This document shows, piece after piece, positions 3,412-14,645 of a stretch of DNA of 64,000 nt. The number at the start of each line of letters is the position of its first letter. Within the stretch, counting starts at the first letter, position 1. The stretch is from Chlorobaculum parvum NCIB 8327 (GTDB taxonomy: Bacteria; Bacteroidota; Chlorobiia; Chlorobiales; Chlorobiaceae). The translations under genes were made by a program, and so were the position numbers. Under the pieces are notes generated by a model, which was given only the letters and a program-made list of their open reading frames with translations, was not told the DNA's origin and did no database searches. Location of the stretch: assembly GCF_000020505.1 (NCBI RefSeq), contig NC_011027.1, positions 2,030,001 to 2,094,000 of the forward strand, in the 5' to 3' direction.

Positions 3412-4251
3412 TCAATTGCCGCCCCGCGCCATGCCGAGTGGATCGGGATGCAGGAACTTGTAGTCCAGCTTTTTGACGAGCCAGTCACTGTTGACAATTT
3501 TGAAGTGGCTATTGCTGGAAGCCTCTTCCGGCAATGAGGCAAAACCGTGACTCTCAGCGGCAGCCTTATAGAGTTCACCCCGTGTCGGATGTTGCGGCGC
3601 GCAGGCGTTGAACACCTCACCCCAACTCCCCTGCCGGATGATTTCAGCGATCACGTGCACACAATCGTCGAGATGGATAAGGTTCACCGGATGAGCGGGA
3701 CTCGTGATTTCCGTCATGCGCTGGATGAACTCCGCCGGATTGCGTCCGGGGCCGATCAGCCCACCGAAGCGCACCACCGTGGTGTTGAACGCAGACTCCG
3801 AACGAAGCATCTCCTCGACGTACATCAACGCCCGACCGGCGGGAGAGTCCGCTTCATCAGGATCGGTAGCATCCGCTTCCACCACCTCGCCCCCGGTGGC
3901 GGGATAGACCGAGGTCGAACTGACGAAAATCACATGCTTCACCGGCGAATCGGCAAGCGCGTCGATCAAAAGCGAAATCTGTCCGACATGGTACTCGACC
4001 ACATCCGGCCGGCGCTGGGGAGGGATGTTCACCACGAGGATGTCGCTCTGAAGAAACGAAGCAATATCACCCTCGATGCTCTCGCCGATGGCGATCCGGA
4101 ACGGCTCTACGCCCGCCTCTTTCATCTTGGCGATTTTCGCCTCGCTGGTGGTCGAACCCTTGACGGCATACCCCTCGCCAACCAGAAAACGGGCCAGCGG
4201 CAAACCGAGCCACCCGCAGCCGAGGATGCTGATGCGTTGTTTTTCAGACAT
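3412..4251 (-). CDS. NAD(P)-binding epimerase/dehydratase-like protein (YeeZ-type SDR)
   Basis: The product has 279 residues and an N-terminal Rossmann fold with the dinucleotide motif GCGWLG at residues 11-16. An SDR-like segment IFVSSTSVYPATGG in the middle holds the Ser/Tyr part of an extended-SDR site, although the usual YxxxK spacing is not clean. This fits the extended/atypical SDR group annotated as NAD-dependent epimerase/dehydratase or YeeZ-like. The substrate cannot be told from the sequence. It is a single-gene unit on the minus strand, divergent from the RiPP cluster that starts about 300 bp away. There is no evidence that it belongs to that cluster. Confidence 0.8.
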   Translation of the reverse strand: MSEKQRISILGCGWLGLPLARFLVGEGYAVKGSTTSEAKIAKMKEAGVEPFRIAIGESIEGDIASFLQSDILVVNIPPQRRPDVVEYHVGQISLLIDALADSPVKHVIFVSSTSVYPATGGEVVEADATDPDEADSPAGRALMYVEEMLRSESAFNTTVVRFGGLIGPGRNPAEFIQRMTEITSPAHPVNLIHLDDCVHVIAEIIRQGSWGEVFNACAPQHPTRGELYKAAAESHGFASLPEEASSNSHFKIVNSDWLVKKLDYKFLHPDPLGMARGGN

Positions 4252-4565: not shown

Positions 4566-4787
4566 ATGAACACCCCTACCTTCGACAGCAGCACACTTAC
4601 GCTCTCACCAGAAACAATGCCCTCGATGCACTGTGACACGTGGGATCCAGACAAACCGACAGCACAGCCCGGAAAAATCTCCATGCACTGCGACACCTGG
4701 ACGCCTGACGAACCGTCAAAACGCACCAGCAGGCTCTCCATGCATTGCGACACCTGGGTACCCGAACCCGAAGAAGGAGACAAGTAA
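4566..4787 (+). CDS. Predicted RiPP precursor peptide with three SMHCDTW core repeats
   Basis: A 73-residue acidic peptide. The heptad SMHCDTW occurs exactly three times, at residues 20-26, 39-45 and 58-64, with a strict 19-residue (57-nt) period. Each copy is followed by x-P-[DE] (WDPD, WTPD, WVPE). The only cysteines (23, 42, 61), histidines (22, 41, 60) and tryptophans (26, 45, 64) sit in these repeats. The linkers between them differ freely. The three DNA copies differ at synonymous positions, so the protein sequence is what is conserved. Residues 1-19 would be a short leader. No double-glycine or signal-peptide cleavage site is visible. It is followed at once by three peptide-modifying enzymes. 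Function as a precursor is inferred from this context and repeat pattern; I know of no named family. Confidence 0.85.
   Translation: MNTPTFDSSTLTLSPETMPSMHCDTWDPDKPTAQPGKISMHCDTWTPDEPSKRTSRLSMHCDTWVPEPEEGDK
4623..4787 (+). repeat. Three 57-bp tandem units encoding SMHCDTW-x-P cores
   Basis: The units start at 4623, 4680 and 4737. The first 21 nt of each encode SMHCDTW and differ only at synonymous third positions (TCG/TCC, CAC/CAT, TGT/TGC, ACG/ACC). The remaining 36 nt vary. The third unit is truncated by the stop codon at 4785-4787. Confidence 0.9.
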
Positions 4788-4798
4788 TCATTCCTGCA

Positions 4799-4835
4799 CC
4801 TGCGGCAAGAATCGTGAATGGCTTCTTGCCGCAGG
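4799..4835 (+). promoter_or_regulatory. 13-bp perfect stem-loop between precursor and maturase genes
   Basis: CCTGCGGCAAGAA (4799-4811) and TTCTTGCCGCAGG (4823-4835) are perfect inverted repeats around an 11-nt loop. The hairpin starts 12 nt after the precursor stop codon and lacks a T-run, so it looks like an mRNA-stabilising or partially attenuating element rather than a full terminator. Such elements commonly raise precursor mRNA over enzyme mRNA in peptide operons; that role here is inferred. Confidence 0.75.
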
Positions 4836-4922
4836 CAACGCTTGGTCATGATAACGGCACTTCAGCCATCACCCCTTTCCCGATCCACCACCCAGACAAC
4901 AGCAAAAGGAGCGGACTCCGAA

Positions 4923-6200
4923 ATGCCCGCATACTCCATTGAACAGAAGGGTGATATAACCTTCCTTCAGCCGTCATCAGGCAAATTCTTCGTCGCGCTC
5001 GACAACCGCTGCGGCCGATGGCAGATGTTCGACGGCAATGCGTCCGAAGCACAAAAAGCTGAAATCGCGGCCAGCCTGAAAGAGTCGCCAACCCCCGATT
5101 TGATGGAGCCAGACGATGACTATCTGGAGGTGGTCATTTTCATCACCGACCGCTGTAACCTTGGCTGCGTCTATTGCAAATACGCCGATCTGACACAGCT
5201 TTCGGAGGTGCGGGGAACGGATGTCGAGCAAATCTGCCGGACGCTCGAAAAGCTGATCCGGGGAAAAAAACAGGTGCGAATCACCTTTCAGGGTGGCGAA
5301 CCCCTGCTCATGCACCGCGAGATCGACCAGATCTGCGCCTTCCTGACCGGCAACTTTTCGGAAATCGAGTTTTCGTTCGCCCTCCAGTCCAACGGCACCC
5401 TGCTGAATGACGCCATTCTGGAGATGCTGAAACAATACGAGATTACCGTCGGCATCACCATCGACGGCCCGGCAAGCCAGCACGACCTGTCGCGCCCGTT
5501 CAAAAACGGCGAAGGGAGCTTCGCGACGATCACAAGCAATCTCGAACGGCTACAAAAAAACAATGTGCGTTGCGGCGTGCTCTCGGTTATCCGCGATCCG
5601 GACGAACTGGAGGCACTGTTCCGCTTCAACCGAGAGGAACTCGGGCTGAACTCCTTCTACCTCAAGCCGCTGGAGTTCGCCGATTCGGGTGCGGAAAGCA
5701 GCGAAGAATTCTCCGCCTACTACGGCAAGCTGGCCGACCGTCAACTCGAATTGATACAGGAACTGATCCGCATTCACACAACGTCGGGAGAACGGATTCA
5801 CGAACAGATGCTTAAAACCGTGCTCGGCAAGATGTTCAGGCCTTCGTTCTACAACGACGGCTGCATCAGAACCCCTTCATGCGGCAGCAACGAGCGCTAC
5901 AAGAGCATGAATTGCGACGGCTCAGTGCAGTGGTGCGCCCATCTTAAAAATCAGCAGGACGAAGCAGTCAAGCAACGCTCGAAGGAGCGCTACGGCTTTT
6001 GCGCCGACTGCCCGATCAGCTCGATCTGCCTCTCGTTCTGCCCCGCCGTCATCCCCGGCTACCGCCACGGCGACCCCGAAGCCTGCTACCTGCCGCTCGC
6101 GAAACGATTCTGCACATACCGCCGCCAGATGATGATGAGCCTGTTCGAGCTGATGCACGAAAACATGCAGGCCGTCACCGCCTGTTTCATGCAGAAATGA
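4923..6200 (+). CDS. Radical SAM/SPASM peptide maturase
   Basis: The 425-residue enzyme probably modifies the adjacent SMHCDTW precursor. The radical SAM cluster motif CNLGCVYC puts the [4Fe-4S] ligands at C78, C82 and C85. GGEP follows in the usual SAM-binding position. The C-terminus is a SPASM domain with cysteines at 320, 331, 338, 360, 363, 369 and 373 and more beyond (CADCPISSIC), enough for auxiliary clusters. The first about 70 residues are a separate N-terminal module of unknown fold. I chose ATG 4923 because AAGGAG lies at 4907-4912; the open frame reaches back to 4818, but that part reads through the intergenic hairpin. SPASM enzymes typically form thioether or carbon-carbon crosslinks in peptides. 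Which bond forms here is unknown. Confidence 0.92.
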   Translation: MPAYSIEQKGDITFLQPSSGKFFVALDNRCGRWQMFDGNASEAQKAEIAASLKESPTPDLMEPDDDYLEVVIFITDRCNLGCVYCKYADLTQLSEVRGTDVEQICRTLEKLIRGKKQVRITFQGGEPLLMHREIDQICAFLTGNFSEIEFSFALQSNGTLLNDAILEMLKQYEITVGITIDGPASQHDLSRPFKNGEGSFATITSNLERLQKNNVRCGVLSVIRDPDELEALFRFNREELGLNSFYLKPLEFADSGAESSEEFSAYYGKLADRQLELIQELIRIHTTSGERIHEQMLKTVLGKMFRPSFYNDGCIRTPSCGSNERYKSMNCDGSVQWCAHLKNQQDEAVKQRSKERYGFCADCPISSICLSFCPAVIPGYRHGDPEACYLPLAKRFCTYRRQMMMSLFELMHENMQAVTACFMQK

Positions 6201-6207
6201 ATCCGCA

Positions 6208-7992
6208 ATGAGCAGCGCGCTTGAACAGATGCGAGTCGCCTTGCGCTCAACCGGGATGGAGGTTTGCGAAAAAACCCGTCAGGGCAGCGAACTGCCGTTT
6301 TTCACCACCATGCTCTTCGCAGGTAAAACTCCGGACGACGACTCCTTACCGCTGGTTTCCGGGCAAGGCATCACCGCCGAAGCCTCGCTTTTGAGCGCGT
6401 ACGGCGAGTTCTTTGAGCGGCTCCAGAACAACTTTATCATCGCCGGCTACCGCTACGCCTGCGCTTCGAATGGCGGATACGACCGGCTGCCAGAGCGGTG
6501 CCGTCAGCGCCTCGACCGGCAGGGCGGGCCGCTGGATTTTTTCATCGCGCCGGACGAAACGTGGATCGCGGCAGATCGGTTCGGTGCGGCGGAAAACCCC
6601 GACCTCATGCCGCGCCACCAGATGCCTGCGAGCAGTGGGGTCGATGGCGACACGCTCCTGTGCGTGCCGTTTTACTCGGTGTTCGACGATTCGGTACGGC
6701 TCTGCCCGATCGAACGGATGCTCTTCGCCAGCGGAAGCACAGGCTGCGCGGCCGGAAGGACTCTTGAACAGGCAATCGCCAAAGCGCTGTTCGAAATCTG
6801 CGAGCGGCATGTCTTTCACCGGATTTTCTCGGACGAGCCACCACTGCCGCTCATCCCGCGCGAGCTGTTACGGAACACCGAAGCTGACCGGATCATCGAA
6901 GCCATCGAAGAGCGCAGCACAAGCGTCACCTTGCTCGATTGCTCGCTCGGCGCACGATTTCCAGTCGTCGCCATGCTGCTCATCGACCGCCAGCGGCAGC
7001 GCTACAACTGCAACCTCGGAGCCGCAGCGACGCTCTCCGGGGCAGTCATCGGAGCACTGAAAGAGCTTTACGACGGCGGCAACGACTTCCACGCCCTGCC
7101 GCTCTCCGGCCTCGACAACCCGTTCGCGGCAACAACCGCCGATGAGAGCCACCGCCTGCGCTTCGCCAACTACTACGCAGCCAAAGCGTCGAGCACTGGC
7201 CTCTGGCCGAAATCGCTCTTCGCCAGCCGCAACTCCGCGTCACAGTGGATCGACGAAACCTGGAGCGACGAGCTGGCCGGCCGCCCACTCAAAGTCCTGC
7301 TCGAACGCTTCGCAAGCTGGACGCCCACGCTCTACATTCGCGACGTCTCGTGGCTCGGCATCCCGTCAGTCTACTGCTACGCACCCGGCCTGAGCGAGGT
7401 GAACTACACCACGGGTCGCAACGAACTTACCATGCTGCTTGAGCTGCGAGCCGAAAGCGAACGTCTGCAAAGCTCCGGAGAAATGGAGATGAAACGGTTG
7501 CTGCGAATCATGGAGCTTCACCGAAGTCTGAAACGCATCACCCTTCCGGCCTCTGTCAGGTTGCTGAACAGCTTTGCGTGCCCGAACCTCCCCGGCAGTG
7601 CCCGGCAGCGTGAAGCGACACTGCTCGCCGCACTCGCACAGCTTTTCGGCGACAAAACGCCACATGACGAATCGCTGCTTGATCGATGCATCCGCGACAG
7701 CAAACAGCTTGCGGATGAAAGCTGCAATGCGGCGGAAATCAACTCGCAATTGCGGCAATTCTATCCTGACAGCGTGGTCGATCTGGCCGCCCGGTGCAGA
7801 CAAGCGCCAGCAGAAGTCATCGAAAATGCGCTGCATTCAATCGAACTGCCTGGCAATGAATCGGCCTGCGACGACTGCCATTTCCTGAAAACTGTCGAAA
7901 CGGCGAGGCGGCTTCAGAAACGACAGATCACCAATCTGCCCGACCAGCGCCGCCTTGCAGAAATCCTCACAACCGCCAGGAACGAAACATGA
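6208..7992 (+). CDS. YcaO-domain peptide-modifying enzyme
   Basis: The 594-residue protein has both ATP-binding signatures of YcaO proteins: a G-x-G-I segment followed by E67-x2-E70-R71 (GEFFER), and a GCAAGRT segment followed by E196-x2-E199-R200 (EICERH). YcaO enzymes use ATP to activate a peptide amide, giving azolines from Cys/Ser/Thr, or thioamides or amidines with other partners. Cys in each precursor repeat is the obvious candidate target. No separate E1-like (ThiF/cyclodehydratase C) or TfuA partner is visible nearby. The C-terminus has no PxPxP motif and instead ends in a helical, Cys-containing stretch (CDDC near residue 554). It starts 7 nt after the SPASM gene and overlaps the next gene by ATGA. 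Confidence 0.9.
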   Translation: MSSALEQMRVALRSTGMEVCEKTRQGSELPFFTTMLFAGKTPDDDSLPLVSGQGITAEASLLSAYGEFFERLQNNFIIAGYRYACASNGGYDRLPERCRQRLDRQGGPLDFFIAPDETWIAADRFGAAENPDLMPRHQMPASSGVDGDTLLCVPFYSVFDDSVRLCPIERMLFASGSTGCAAGRTLEQAIAKALFEICERHVFHRIFSDEPPLPLIPRELLRNTEADRIIEAIEERSTSVTLLDCSLGARFPVVAMLLIDRQRQRYNCNLGAAATLSGAVIGALKELYDGGNDFHALPLSGLDNPFAATTADESHRLRFANYYAAKASSTGLWPKSLFASRNSASQWIDETWSDELAGRPLKVLLERFASWTPTLYIRDVSWLGIPSVYCYAPGLSEVNYTTGRNELTMLLELRAESERLQSSGEMEMKRLLRIMELHRSLKRITLPASVRLLNSFACPNLPGSARQREATLLAALAQLFGDKTPHDESLLDRCIRDSKQLADESCNAAEINSQLRQFYPDSVVDLAARCRQAPAEVIENALHSIELPGNESACDDCHFLKTVETARRLQKRQITNLPDQRRLAEILTTARNET

Positions 7993-9824
7993 CCATCGCT
8001 CTCACCATCTTTCCCTGCTTTTCGGACAAAACGCTCCCGCTCGGCCTGGCTTGCCTGAAAAGCGTGCTGGACGGCGAGGGCATCGAAAGTGAGGTGTTCG
8101 ATTTCGACCTGTTGCTGAGCATCGAAGACCCGGCGCTCTACTACCAGCTCCATCGCCTCGGAGCCAGCCCCGGCGCGGCGCTCGACGACCGGATGATAAA
8201 CTTCATCGGCTACCGCCCCGACCTCACCCTTGCGGCACTCTTCACCCCGCCCGAAGAGGCGCGAAAGCGGTTCGAAACGGACGGACTTGAACAGCTTTTC
8301 GACAAGCTCGACCACTTCCTCGAACGCGCGGTCACGCGGCTGCTCGCAACGGAGCCGGAGCAAATCTGGCTCTCCACCTACATCAGCAACCTCTGGGTTT
8401 CGATGCTCGCCGCCCGCAAACTGCGCGAACGCACGGAAGCGACAATCGTGTTCGGAGGCCCGGCGGTGTTCCCCGAAGAGGTGCAGCGTTTTCTGATTGT
8501 GAACGGTCTGGCCGACAGGGTCGTCGTGGGCGAAGGTGAACTGACGGCGCGGGAGCTGATCCGCGCGAACGGCAGGCCGGTGGCGGGCGCGGCGCAAATG
8601 ATCGAGGGGGAGTTCCGGTACGAGCCGCGCCACGAATGGCTGAGGCCAGAGGAGTTCCCGATGCCCGATTTCAAAGGATTCCCATTCGCGGACACGCCCT
8701 TCGACGCCTACCTGCGGCGGCGCTTCGAGGGCCTCCCGGTCTCCTTTTCGCGCGGCTGCGTCAACGGCTGTATCTACTGCTCCGAAAAGCAGATATGGAA
8801 GCGCTTCCGCCACCTCTCGCCCGAAGCCTCCGTCGAACGGCTCGCCGCGTACAAACAGCGCTTCGGCATCGGTCTCTTCTACATTTGCGACAGCCTCATC
8901 AACTTCAGCGAAGCGTGGCTGTCGGAGTTCTGCGACCTGATTCTGTCGAGCGATCTGCAACCGCTCTTCACCTTCGCCTTCTGCGACCTGAAGCACCTCA
9001 AACCGGAGCTGACCGCAAAGATGGCTGCGGCGGGATTCACGAGGATCACCTTCGGCCTCGAAAGCGCGTCCGAAAACGTGCTGACGAGAATGCACAAAAA
9101 GCTCGATCTCGACCTCGCCCGCGAAAACATCGTCGCGGCAACCCGCAACGGGCTGTCGATCCACGTATCAACCATCATCAACTTTCCGGGCGAACAGACC
9201 GCCGACGCGCTCGACACAATCCGGTTTTTCAGAGAGATCGACCGTGAGCTTGCTGGCAACAACCTGCCGATGACGCACCTGCCCCGCCGAAGCCTCAGCA
9301 ACCGCTTTCGGCTCGAACCCGCCTCGGCGATCTACCTGCACCCGGAGCACTACGGCATCCGCATGGAAACGACCGGAGCATCGTGGACGCCGCTTGCTGA
9401 AGAGAGCGCCTTTCTGGCCAAACGGTGGCGTTCGTCCGACGACCAGGAGCAACTGGAGTGGAACGCTTACCTGCTTTCCGGCTTTTCAAAAAACCCGCGA
9501 CCGTGGCACCTGCACGACAGCCAGTACAGAAAACAGGCCGAAGCCATTGCCCCGCTCATCGACAAGGAAAAGCATCGCTTCACACTCTCGCCGCATGTCG
9601 TATTGCGACAATCGACTCCCGAAAACGGGCTCATCCTGCACGATTACCGCGAAGAGTTCCAGCTCGACGACTGGCAATCCCAAGTTATCAGGCTGCTGGC
9701 AAAAAAAGCTTCTCTCCATGAAATTACGGAAAAGATCACCGCCCTCACCGAAGCGAAATCGGCTGGCGCAATCAGAGACTTCGTGCTTTTCCTCTATGTG
9801 AGAGGCATCGCCCGAATCACCTGA
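7989..9824 (+). CDS. Cobalamin-type radical SAM enzyme with C-terminal RRE/PqqD-like domain
   Basis: The 611-residue protein begins with a Rossmann-like half (about 1-200) containing GGPAVFPEE and VVGEGE, as in B12-binding radical SAM enzymes. No DxHxxG motif is present, which suits base-off cobalamin binding. The radical SAM core has C257, C261 and C264 (CVNGCIYC). It resembles the RiPP-maturation radical SAM C-methyltransferase type. The last about 80 residues (from about 530) read like a PqqD/RRE fold: a basic strand LSPHVVLRQ, a segment ending in FQLDDWQSQVIRLL, and a final helix DFVLFLYVRGI. That would let the enzyme bind the precursor leader itself. Translation is coupled to YcaO by the ATGA overlap. 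Methylation of the precursor is a reasonable guess, not shown. Confidence 0.88.
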   Translation: MTIALTIFPCFSDKTLPLGLACLKSVLDGEGIESEVFDFDLLLSIEDPALYYQLHRLGASPGAALDDRMINFIGYRPDLTLAALFTPPEEARKRFETDGLEQLFDKLDHFLERAVTRLLATEPEQIWLSTYISNLWVSMLAARKLRERTEATIVFGGPAVFPEEVQRFLIVNGLADRVVVGEGELTARELIRANGRPVAGAAQMIEGEFRYEPRHEWLRPEEFPMPDFKGFPFADTPFDAYLRRRFEGLPVSFSRGCVNGCIYCSEKQIWKRFRHLSPEASVERLAAYKQRFGIGLFYICDSLINFSEAWLSEFCDLILSSDLQPLFTFAFCDLKHLKPELTAKMAAAGFTRITFGLESASENVLTRMHKKLDLDLARENIVAATRNGLSIHVSTIINFPGEQTADALDTIRFFREIDRELAGNNLPMTHLPRRSLSNRFRLEPASAIYLHPEHYGIRMETTGASWTPLAEESAFLAKRWRSSDDQEQLEWNAYLLSGFSKNPRPWHLHDSQYRKQAEAIAPLIDKEKHRFTLSPHVVLRQSTPENGLILHDYREEFQLDDWQSQVIRLLAKKASLHEITEKITALTEAKSAGAIRDFVLFLYVRGIARIT

Positions 9825-9839
9825 ACAAGCCGGACCGGT

Positions 9840-10175
9840 TTATTTGCCCAACGAAGAGGAGGGGTTAAGAGACTGATGGTAGAGAATCAGCGATTTCATC
9901 TCAACCGATTCAAGCGGCAGGGGTTTGCCGCGTAACGCCCCGGCAATGCAAGTATTGATCTGCTGGACGAGCTTCGGATTCTGCCACGCATTTTCGACTC
10001 CCTTGCCGTTCGGGTGGCAACTCGCACAGGTTTTGGTTCCAGTCGCGCCGCCAAGTGTCGGATCATTGAACAGTTTTTTGCCAAGCTCCACGGAGGGAGT
10101 TTGTGCGGCCTGAGCAGCAGTACCCATGCCAACCATCGCAGCGACAAGCATCGCCGTTTTCACACTTTTCATCAT
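9840..10175 (-). CDS. Small periplasmic monohaem cytochrome c
   Basis: A 111-residue protein with a cleavable signal peptide (hydrophobic stretch about 7-24, ending AQA) and a single haem-binding motif CASCH at 50-54. Methionine 93, in MKSLILYHQSL near the C-terminus, is a likely sixth haem ligand, as in class I cytochromes c. An extra cysteine lies at residue 76. It is exported and would carry electrons in the periplasm; the partner is unknown. AAGGAGGAT sits just upstream of the start, an excellent ribosome site. It is convergent with the RiPP operon (15-bp gap) and therefore not part of it. Confidence 0.85.
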   Translation of the reverse strand: MMKSVKTAMLVAAMVGMGTAAQAAQTPSVELGKKLFNDPTLGGATGTKTCASCHPNGKGVENAWQNPKLVQQINTCIAGALRGKPLPLESVEMKSLILYHQSLNPSSSLGK

Positions 10176-13054: not shown

Positions 13055-13864
13055 ATGCCGCAACCGACAACCGACATCGCCATCCAGACCGACCGGCTCA
13101 CCCGCTCGTTCGGCTCGCTCGTGGCCGTTAACGAGCTAAATCTGACGGTGCGGTCGAGCGAGATTTTCGGGTTGCTCGGGCCGAACGGGGCGGGCAAGAC
13201 GACGACGATCAAGATGCTCACCACCATGCTGCCGCCGACGAGCGGTGCGGCGACGGTCGCCGGGCACAGCATCCTCGGCGACAGCATCGGCGTGCGCAAG
13301 CGTATCGGCTACGTGTCGCAGATGATTTCGGCGGACGGGGCGCTGACCGGCTTCGAGAACCTGCTGCTCTTCGCCCGCATCTACAACGTGCCGCGCCGCG
13401 AGCGCACCCGACGCATCGACGAAGCGCTCGCCTTCATGGGCCTCACCGACGCGCGAGACAAGCTGGTGCGCACCTACTCCGGCGGCATGATCCGGCGGCT
13501 CGAAATCGCCCTCTCGATGCTCCACCGGCCCGAGGTGCTCTTCCTCGACGAACCGACCATCGGCCTCGACCCAGCCGCCCGCCTCCAGGTCTGGAAGCGG
13601 CTGAAGGAGCTGCTCAAAACCTTCGGCACCACGATTCTGCTCACCACGCACGACATGGAGGAGGCCGAAGAATTGTGCGACCGGATCGCCATCATGAAGG
13701 AGGGAGTCATCGCCGCCGAAGGGTCGGCGAAAGAGCTGAAGCACCGCGCCGGAACAGACTCGATGAACCAGGTTTTCATTCACTTTGCAGGAGAGTTCAG
13801 TGACAGCAAGCCAAACTTCCGCGACATCAACCGCACTCGCCGGACGGCCAAACGGCTGGGCTGA
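13055..13864 (+). CDS. ABC transporter ATPase (ABC-2/DrrA type)
   Basis: The 269-residue ATPase has Walker A GPNGAGKT, the signature YSGGMIRRLE, Walker B VLFLDEP and the switch histidine in LLTTHD, in that order and at normal spacing. The resemblance is to DrrA/CcmA-type exporters. I chose ATG 13055 (MPQPTTD); the frame is open back to 12989 but those residues are unlike the family. Its 3' end overlaps the permease gene by 65 bp, which suggests strong translational coupling. The substrate is unknown. Confidence 0.88.
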   Translation: MPQPTTDIAIQTDRLTRSFGSLVAVNELNLTVRSSEIFGLLGPNGAGKTTTIKMLTTMLPPTSGAATVAGHSILGDSIGVRKRIGYVSQMISADGALTGFENLLLFARIYNVPRRERTRRIDEALAFMGLTDARDKLVRTYSGGMIRRLEIALSMLHRPEVLFLDEPTIGLDPAARLQVWKRLKELLKTFGTTILLTTHDMEEAEELCDRIAIMKEGVIAAEGSAKELKHRAGTDSMNQVFIHFAGEFSDSKPNFRDINRTRRTAKRLG

Positions 13865-14645
13865 AAAGTTCGACCCCGCCGGGTTCCTGCGCGACACGGC
13901 GGCCATCGTCGCCACCGAGCTGGCCAAGCTGCGCCGCGACCCGTCGGAAATCCTCAGCCGCTCGATCCAGCCCGCGCTCTGGCTGCTGGTCTTCGGCCAG
14001 GTCTTCGGGCGGATGCGCGCCATCCCCACCGGCAAGCTCGACTACTTCAGCTTCCTCGCGCCGGGCATCCTCGCGCAGAGCGTGCTCTTCATCGCGATCT
14101 TTTACGGCATCAACGTCATCTGGGAAAAAGACCTCGGCATTTTGCAGAAGCTGCTCGCCAGCCCCGCCCCGCGCAGCGCGCTCGTCTTCGGCAAGGCGGT
14201 CTCGGCGGGAATGCGCGCCATAGCGCAGGCAGCCATCGTCTATCTGATGGCGCTCGTCGCAGGCGTTCATCTGAACTGGTCGCCGCTCGCGCTCGGCGGC
14301 GTGCTCGTCGCCATCGTGCTCGGCGCGGCGCTCTTTTCGACCTTCTCGCTCATGATCGCCTGCCTCGTCCGGTCGCGCGAACGCTTCATGGGCATCGGTC
14401 AGGTCATGACCATGCCGCTCTTCTTCGCCAGTAACGCCATCTACCCGATCTCCATCATGCCCACCTGGCTCAAAATCGTCGCCCATATCAACCCACTCTC
14501 CTACCAGGTTGACCTCCTCCGCGCGTTGATGGTCGTCGGCGGCACGAGCACTTTCGGCATCGGGATGGATTTTCTGATGTTGATTGGAATGCTTGTTGCG
14601 CTGATCGTCGTGACATCGAAATTGTATCCGACGATTGTGCAGTAA
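13800..14645 (+). CDS. ABC-2 type transporter permease
   Basis: A 281-residue integral membrane protein with about six hydrophobic segments in the second to last thirds and the ABC-2 family pattern (LDYFSFLAPGILAQSVLF, then FASNAIYPISIMP near the end). It pairs with the ATPase just upstream as a drug, polysaccharide or lipid exporter. GTG 13800 is preferred over ATG 13785 because AGGAGAG at 13789-13795 sits directly before it. The start lies inside the ATPase gene in another frame. Confidence 0.85.
   Translation: MTASQTSATSTALAGRPNGWAEKFDPAGFLRDTAAIVATELAKLRRDPSEILSRSIQPALWLLVFGQVFGRMRAIPTGKLDYFSFLAPGILAQSVLFIAIFYGINVIWEKDLGILQKLLASPAPRSALVFGKAVSAGMRAIAQAAIVYLMALVAGVHLNWSPLALGGVLVAIVLGAALFSTFSLMIACLVRSRERFMGIGQVMTMPLFFASNAIYPISIMPTWLKIVAHINPLSYQVDLLRALMVVGGTSTFGIGMDFLMLIGMLVALIVVTSKLYPTIVQ

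Follow-up and report, generated by a model that had tools for sequence, protein, structure and literature searches.

What does a cell make from a short open reading frame that spells the same peptide motif three times over, and what do the enzymes encoded beside it do with the product? The question is raised by gene A (4566-4787, + strand) in the window, i.e., the 64,000-nucleotide stretch of Chlorobaculum parvum NCIB 8327 (contig NC_011027.1, positions 2,030,001 to 2,094,000) analysed here. Gene A has a GAAGGA ribosome-binding site immediately 5', orthologues in five other genomes, and a translation of 73 amino acids (MNTPTFDSSTLTLSPETMPSMHCDTWDPDKPTAQPGKISMHCDTWTPDEPSKRTSRLSMHCDTWVPEPEEGDK, ORF 4566-4787, +), in which a short leader, MNTPTFDSSTLTLSPETMP (4566-4622, +, delimited by the precursor alignment), precedes three copies of one block on the same strand: core 1, SMHCDTW-D-P (4623-4649), core 2, SMHCDTW-T-P (4680-4706), and core 3, SMHCDTW-V-P (4737-4763). 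The original prediction, made from the letters alone, described an exact 57-nt (19-residue) period of MHCDTW, and this is what we find (starts at 4626, 4683, and 4740); TRF independently calls an array of that 57-nt period (4622-4757, 76% matches). That all Cys, His, and Trp lie in the repeats was likewise correct by residue position (3/3 of each), and synonymous changes do keep the repeated protein constant, since every DNA change within SMHCDTW among the three copies is synonymous. The Ser 5' of MHCDTW (codon 4623-4625) is also invariant, which extends the block to S-M-H-C-D-T-W-x-P, while all Lys and Arg except the C-terminal Lys sit in the linkers. SMHCDTW, at seven residues, is the longest peptide word occurring three times in the product; in 20,000 residue shuffles the longest triple word had four residues and appeared in eight shuffles, and together with the synonymous-only core differences this rules out a chance or non-coding repeat. 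The claim of three identical products holds for SMHCDTW itself and fails for products retaining x-P, which would differ because x is D, T, or V depending on the copy. A search for a second precursor elsewhere in the same genome (one contig, 2,289,249 bases) found none.

The precursor is present in six of 98 Chlorobia genomes, i.e., that of the window and five other Chlorobiaceae, with 3, 3, 3, 3, 4, and 2 cores. Seven core positions (S, M, H, C, D, T, and P) never vary among these 18 copies, and Trp gives way to Tyr in a single one, even as the core Ser draws on both of its codon families. Among the five Chlorobaculum-type genomes, summed over pairs, core codons differ synonymously 72 times (pS 0.58) and non-synonymously not once, against a pN of 0.096 and a pS of 0.46 for the linkers of the same genomes. 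Core-to-core spacing ranges from 19 to 39 residues, and in the distant orthologue (genome G041, of another genus in the Chlorobium group) the linkers are unrelated and longer, with a leader-like stretch, NDNFSLSLSSRLP, ahead of core 2 that resembles VDNLTLKSGTKMP ahead of core 1. These patterns are as expected for core peptides and spacers. The alignment of orthologous precursors that the original prediction proposed as its check thus came out in its favour, with conserved SMHCDT[W/Y]xP cores (pN 0), varying linkers, and a repeat number of two, three, or four. Linkers as conserved as the cores, or Cys, His, and Trp positions that vary, had been named as findings that would count against it, and overall neither was seen; still, a linker pN/pS of about 0.2 in Chlorobaculum points to constraint there too, and the G041 precursor has two additional Cys, both outside the cores.

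Gene A does not stand alone. At all six loci, four genes are adjacent and in the same order: the precursor (A), a radical SAM/SPASM enzyme (B), a stand-alone YcaO (C), and a B12-type radical SAM enzyme (D), with genes C and D overlapping by four bases, and the YcaO occurs in the same six of 98 Chlorobia genomes as the precursor. In the window, the operon is flanked by an epimerase-like gene and a small c-type cytochrome gene (3412-4251 and 9840-10175) and is encoded on the strand opposite to theirs, and in four operon-free Chlorobaculum-group genomes the cytochrome and epimerase-like genes stand side by side, which comparison of the junction sequences shows to be the empty site. The G041 locus has only A-D in common with the window and differs in its flanks, the operon there adjoining a glycosyltransferase-like ORF (13281-14288 of that locus) and not the cytochrome and epimerase-like genes. 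Hence, the empty site in relatives and the restriction of the shared genes to A-D indicate that the operon is a discrete cassette, and the different neighbour in G041 that this cassette occupies two different sites. Its G+C content is that of its surroundings.

Between genes A and B lies a strong intercistronic hairpin (4799-4835, +, z -3.5), found at the same place in all six orthologues with a different stem sequence (z -2.0 to -5.5 in the other orthologues tested) and ending, in the G041 locus, in a U tract like that of an attenuator or terminator. That its position is kept despite the changed stem suggests selection on structure, and the element may act as an attenuator or in RNA stability, which would yield more precursor than enzyme. 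A sigma-70 promoter scan returned nothing, and Rfam reported no RNA in the operon at its threshold.

How widely is this arrangement distributed? A YcaO-alignment scan of 84,980 species found close relatives in Chlorobiaceae only, and profiles of B and C run on 296 Bacteroidota genomes matched at the operon loci only (a single additional match, a partial one, came from the profile of D), on the understanding that such scans require conserved words or close similarity, so that remote relatives may escape them. No viral relatives of the YcaO were found in IMG/VR and no plasmid-borne relatives in the plasmid collection. Loci of deltaproteobacterial, Succinivibrio, and Burkholderiales YcaO relatives (L047-L096) had no B or D match, and these relatives are therefore taken as E. 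coli-type YcaO. Separately, a Clostridium tunisiense locus (1692-10831 of L046) holds another RiPP-like cluster with unrelated precursors. Its four small precursor-like ORFs alternate as two near-identical pairs; also present are a YcaO, a presumed SagB-like oxidoreductase, and B12-type radical SAM genes and ABC-transporter-like ORFs, two of each.

A general hallmark of RiPP operons, shown by genes A-D, is a short precursor whose core residues are conserved and whose gene neighbours those of modifying enzymes; a leader-binding domain would be a second. Gene D (7989-9824, +; 611 aa, CxxxCxxC at residues 257-264) supplies a candidate for the latter at its C-terminus. Its best model is TIGR03975 (rSAM_ocin_1), with residues 4-596 of 611 aligned at 98.6 bits, below the cut-off of 281.85, and residues 112-190, ahead of the radical SAM motif, match the cobalamin-binding domain PF02310 with an E-value of 1.3e-5 but a score below the gathering cut-off. 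The last 83 residues (9573-9821, +), a region in which no Pfam domain is reported, are predicted by AlphaFold2 with good confidence (pLDDT 87.7) to adopt an RRE (PqqD-like leader-binding) fold, which superposes on the leader-bound RRE of the lasso peptide protein TbiB1 with Z 11.0 over 81 residues at 2.1 A and on PqqD with Z 8.9; lasso B1 and PqqD are also the best Foldseek matches. The RRE expected of a RiPP cluster is, as judged from predicted fold, thus present at the C-terminus of gene D. Its partner may be the gene A leader, whose FD-S-[SG]-x-[LM]-T-L region is common to the orthologues and which, going by sequence, is a plausible RRE-binding element.

Gene B (4923-6200, +; 425 aa) is a radical SAM/SPASM peptide maturase. 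Its CxxxCxxC motif at residues 78-85 (C78/C82/C85) and the seven-Cys SPASM pattern running from C320 to C397 (C320-x12-G333-x4-C338; C360xxC363x5C369x3C373; C397), the two signatures of a SPASM radical SAM enzyme, are invariant in 6/6 orthologues. The best NCBIfam model is PapB (NF047865), which matches all six orthologues and scores 115 bits with gene B, short of its cut-off of 340; HxsB, at 100 bits, also falls short of its cut-off, as do the cyclophane models YhhB (105.5 bits, cut-off 445), GrrM (84.7/310), FxsB (74/370), XyeB (69.9/450), and AmcB (67.9/425). By sequence, the nearest solved relative is ChlB, described in a title within a reference list as a multiple-cyclophane synthase. Given near-equal PapB, YhhB, and HxsB scores and ChlB as the nearest solved relative, the type of bond that gene B makes cannot be read from homology. 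Its structure model is of low confidence (pLDDT 58), with 5why, a sactipeptide thioether enzyme, as top Foldseek match; in the same model, the first 55 residues (4923-5090) form four strands and a helix, not a three-helix RRE.

Two types of crosslink can be weighed against the cores, and we hold either only tentatively. In the first, suggested by the original prediction and triceptide-like, gene B would form a cyclophane with a bond from the His ring to the beta-carbon of Asp within H-C-D, an aromatic-x-polar triplet carried by 18/18 cores, and possibly another from Trp to Pro within W-x-P. This possibility draws on the kinship with ChlB, on the matches to the YhhB, GrrM, FxsB, and XyeB models, and on the invariance of His and Asp with an aromatic residue (W/Y) at the Trp position in all 18 cores, but PapB, a thioether enzyme, slightly outscores every cyclophane model (all of them far under cut-off), and the invariant Cys, Met, and Thr and the YcaO are left unexplained. 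We know of no described case of Pro as a cyclophane acceptor, a point against the W-x-P link. In the second, a ranthipeptide-like reaction that we regard as possible and little beyond, gene B would form a thioether between Cys and the Asp beside it, or between Cys and a different residue of the core (Thr or Trp, for example), in the manner of PapB, which uses Asp and Glu. PapB as top model for all six orthologues, the 5why match, and the invariance of Cys and Asp in 18 cores favour it, although the PapB cut-off is missed by a wide span and the model behind the 5why match is of low confidence. Substrate preference cuts both ways, in that PapB accepts Cys-Xn-Asp with n = 0-6 but takes directly adjacent Cys-Asp poorly (PMC9413430), and adjacent Cys-Asp (CX0D) is what 18/18 cores carry. 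The original prediction takes no account of the YcaO and the B12-type enzyme, and the full product therefore probably bears more than a crosslink.

Gene C (6208-7992, +; 594 aa) is a stand-alone YcaO that exceeds the PF02624 gathering cut-off of 25.7 with 134 bits and keeps both Glu-rich ATP motifs (SAYGE[LF]FER and ExCER). Its best family model is the E. coli-type YcaO NF040716 (95.9 bits, missing the cut-off of 700), and E. coli YcaO is its closest solved relative; its pI of 5.2-5.6 makes it less acidic than other relatives of that enzyme (4.5-5.1). Four Cys (458, 494, 554, and 557) are invariant, in a C-terminal region that has no Pfam match, and possibly form a metal site. Green sulfur bacteria live where sulfide is abundant. 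Some thioamide-forming YcaO enzymes stem from high-sulfide habitats, and a 2026 report showed that E. coli YcaO, using sulfide and ATP, thioamidates uL16-Met82 directly and needs no TfuA (PMC13063428); NF040716 still labels it an S12 methylthiotransferase accessory factor, as opposed to the uL16 thioamidase of that report. The activity of this closest relative, the sulfide habitat, and the invariant core Met make thioamidation the leading prediction, and by analogy gene C most likely installs a backbone thioamide. Both uL16 and S12 are disfavoured as its target, because among the 98 Chlorobia the YcaO is found only beside the precursor.

Among RiPP YcaO enzymes, the most frequent reaction is the formation of azolines, and the invariant Cys and Thr of every core could in principle become thiazoline and oxazoline, respectively. 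We consider it unlikely that gene C does this instead, since azoline-forming cyclodehydratases have a PxPxP C-terminus and a partner protein: the former is absent from all six gene C orthologues, and the four-gene operon holds no cyclodehydratase partner (E1-like/ocin-ThiF), nor any TfuA-like gene. A thiazoline would also consume the Cys that a thioether needs, and the closest characterised relative makes a thioamide (PMC13063428).

Taken as a whole, genes A-D (4566-9824) probably constitute a self-contained multi-core RiPP operon, an architecture that is well supported, and its three enzymes very probably modify each core copy chemically. This reading draws on the repeats, the selection on the cores, the operon, its co-occurrence across genomes, the predicted RRE fold, and the enzyme superfamilies; from these we infer the action of B, C, and D on A, the residues altered, the bonds formed, the processing, and the biological role. 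In the proposed scheme, gene A would provide a short leader followed by three cores (two to four in relatives) with Lys/Arg-containing linkers between them, and the RRE at the C-terminus of gene D would bind the leader and deliver the chain to the three enzymes. Gene B would then crosslink within the core, with Cys, His, Asp, or Trp involved; gene C would activate a backbone amide with ATP and swap its oxygen for sulfur from sulfide; and gene D would transfer at least one methyl group to carbon. Finally, a housekeeping protease might cut the linkers, so that each chain releases several small, modified, nearly identical peptides, perhaps for metal binding or signalling. All three enzymes lie far below the curated cut-offs of all named NCBIfam families shown, which makes the transfer of chemistry from relatives uncertain. 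It is a more speculative proposal, with the odds against it in full, that every SMHCDTW core receives a radical SAM crosslink, a YcaO thioamide (perhaps at Met, compare uL16-Met82), and a B12-dependent C-methyl group. This would define a RiPP class known to date from green sulfur bacteria alone and served by a YcaO related to the ribosomal thioamidase, and its product could be a metal-binding or redox peptide.

The scheme presumes that the chain is cut, and one reading holds that it is not, gene A then being a small protein for metal binding or redox work, with several HCD/W sites that are modified in place. His, Cys, and Asp can coordinate metals, the linkers are partly conserved within Chlorobaculum, and within the four genes no protease or exporter (and no immunity gene) was found; nevertheless, we judge this improbable, as two to four copies, spacings of 19-39 residues, and unrelated linkers in the distant orthologue speak for independent units more than for a single folded protein.

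How does a multi-core RiPP operon of this kind compare with known systems? The literature searched gave no description of the operon or its motif, nor of the enzyme combination, the SMHCDTWxP multi-core precursor, a B12-type radical SAM enzyme ending in an RRE, the restriction to Chlorobiaceae, or any RiPP from green sulfur bacteria. The general kind is already known, as radical SAM and YcaO enzymes also occur together in Itf-type and other RiPP clusters of Bacteroidales, in the same phylum (PMC10352776). However, the Bacteroidales clusters analysed have GG-motif leaders and peptidase-transporters, and the ItfB product is a C-terminal amidine (PMC10352776), whereas the operon here has no transporter and adds a multi-core precursor and an extra B12-type enzyme. 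Ranthipeptides (PapA/PapB) and other SPASM RiPPs share a small Cys/Asp precursor with repeated motifs and an adjacent SPASM enzyme; in contrast to PapA/PapB, Cys and Asp here are adjacent inside SMHCDTWxP, gene B scores under the PapB cut-off, and a YcaO and a B12-type enzyme are added. Triceptides (ChlB, YhhB, GrrM, XyeB, and FxsB) are alike in the H-C-D triplet and in ChlB as nearest solved enzyme, but gene B misses all of their family cut-offs, and an aromatic-to-beta-carbon bond is putative here. RiPP radical SAM C-methyltransferases (TIGR03975) align with gene D nearly end to end, at a score under the cut-off.

What sets this locus apart is a near-unchanging core paired with three enzyme classes seldom found together, and because the core copies are short and near-identical, mass spectrometry can test their chemistry directly; the calculated [M+H]+ values of the unmodified tryptic gene A peptides ISMHCDTWTPDEPSK and LSMHCDTWVPEPEEGDK are 1746.7462 and 1972.8415, respectively. 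The closest parallel for gene C is E. coli YcaO, likewise stand-alone and without TfuA or PxPxP; the E. coli enzyme acts on the basic protein uL16, whereas gene C belongs to a RiPP operon whose peptide is small and acidic, and the former needs a folded protein substrate, not a short peptide (PMC13063428). If gene C does make a thioamide, it would tie RiPP thioamidation to the recently solved thioamidation of uL16 and supply this branch of the YcaO family with a simple peptide as substrate.
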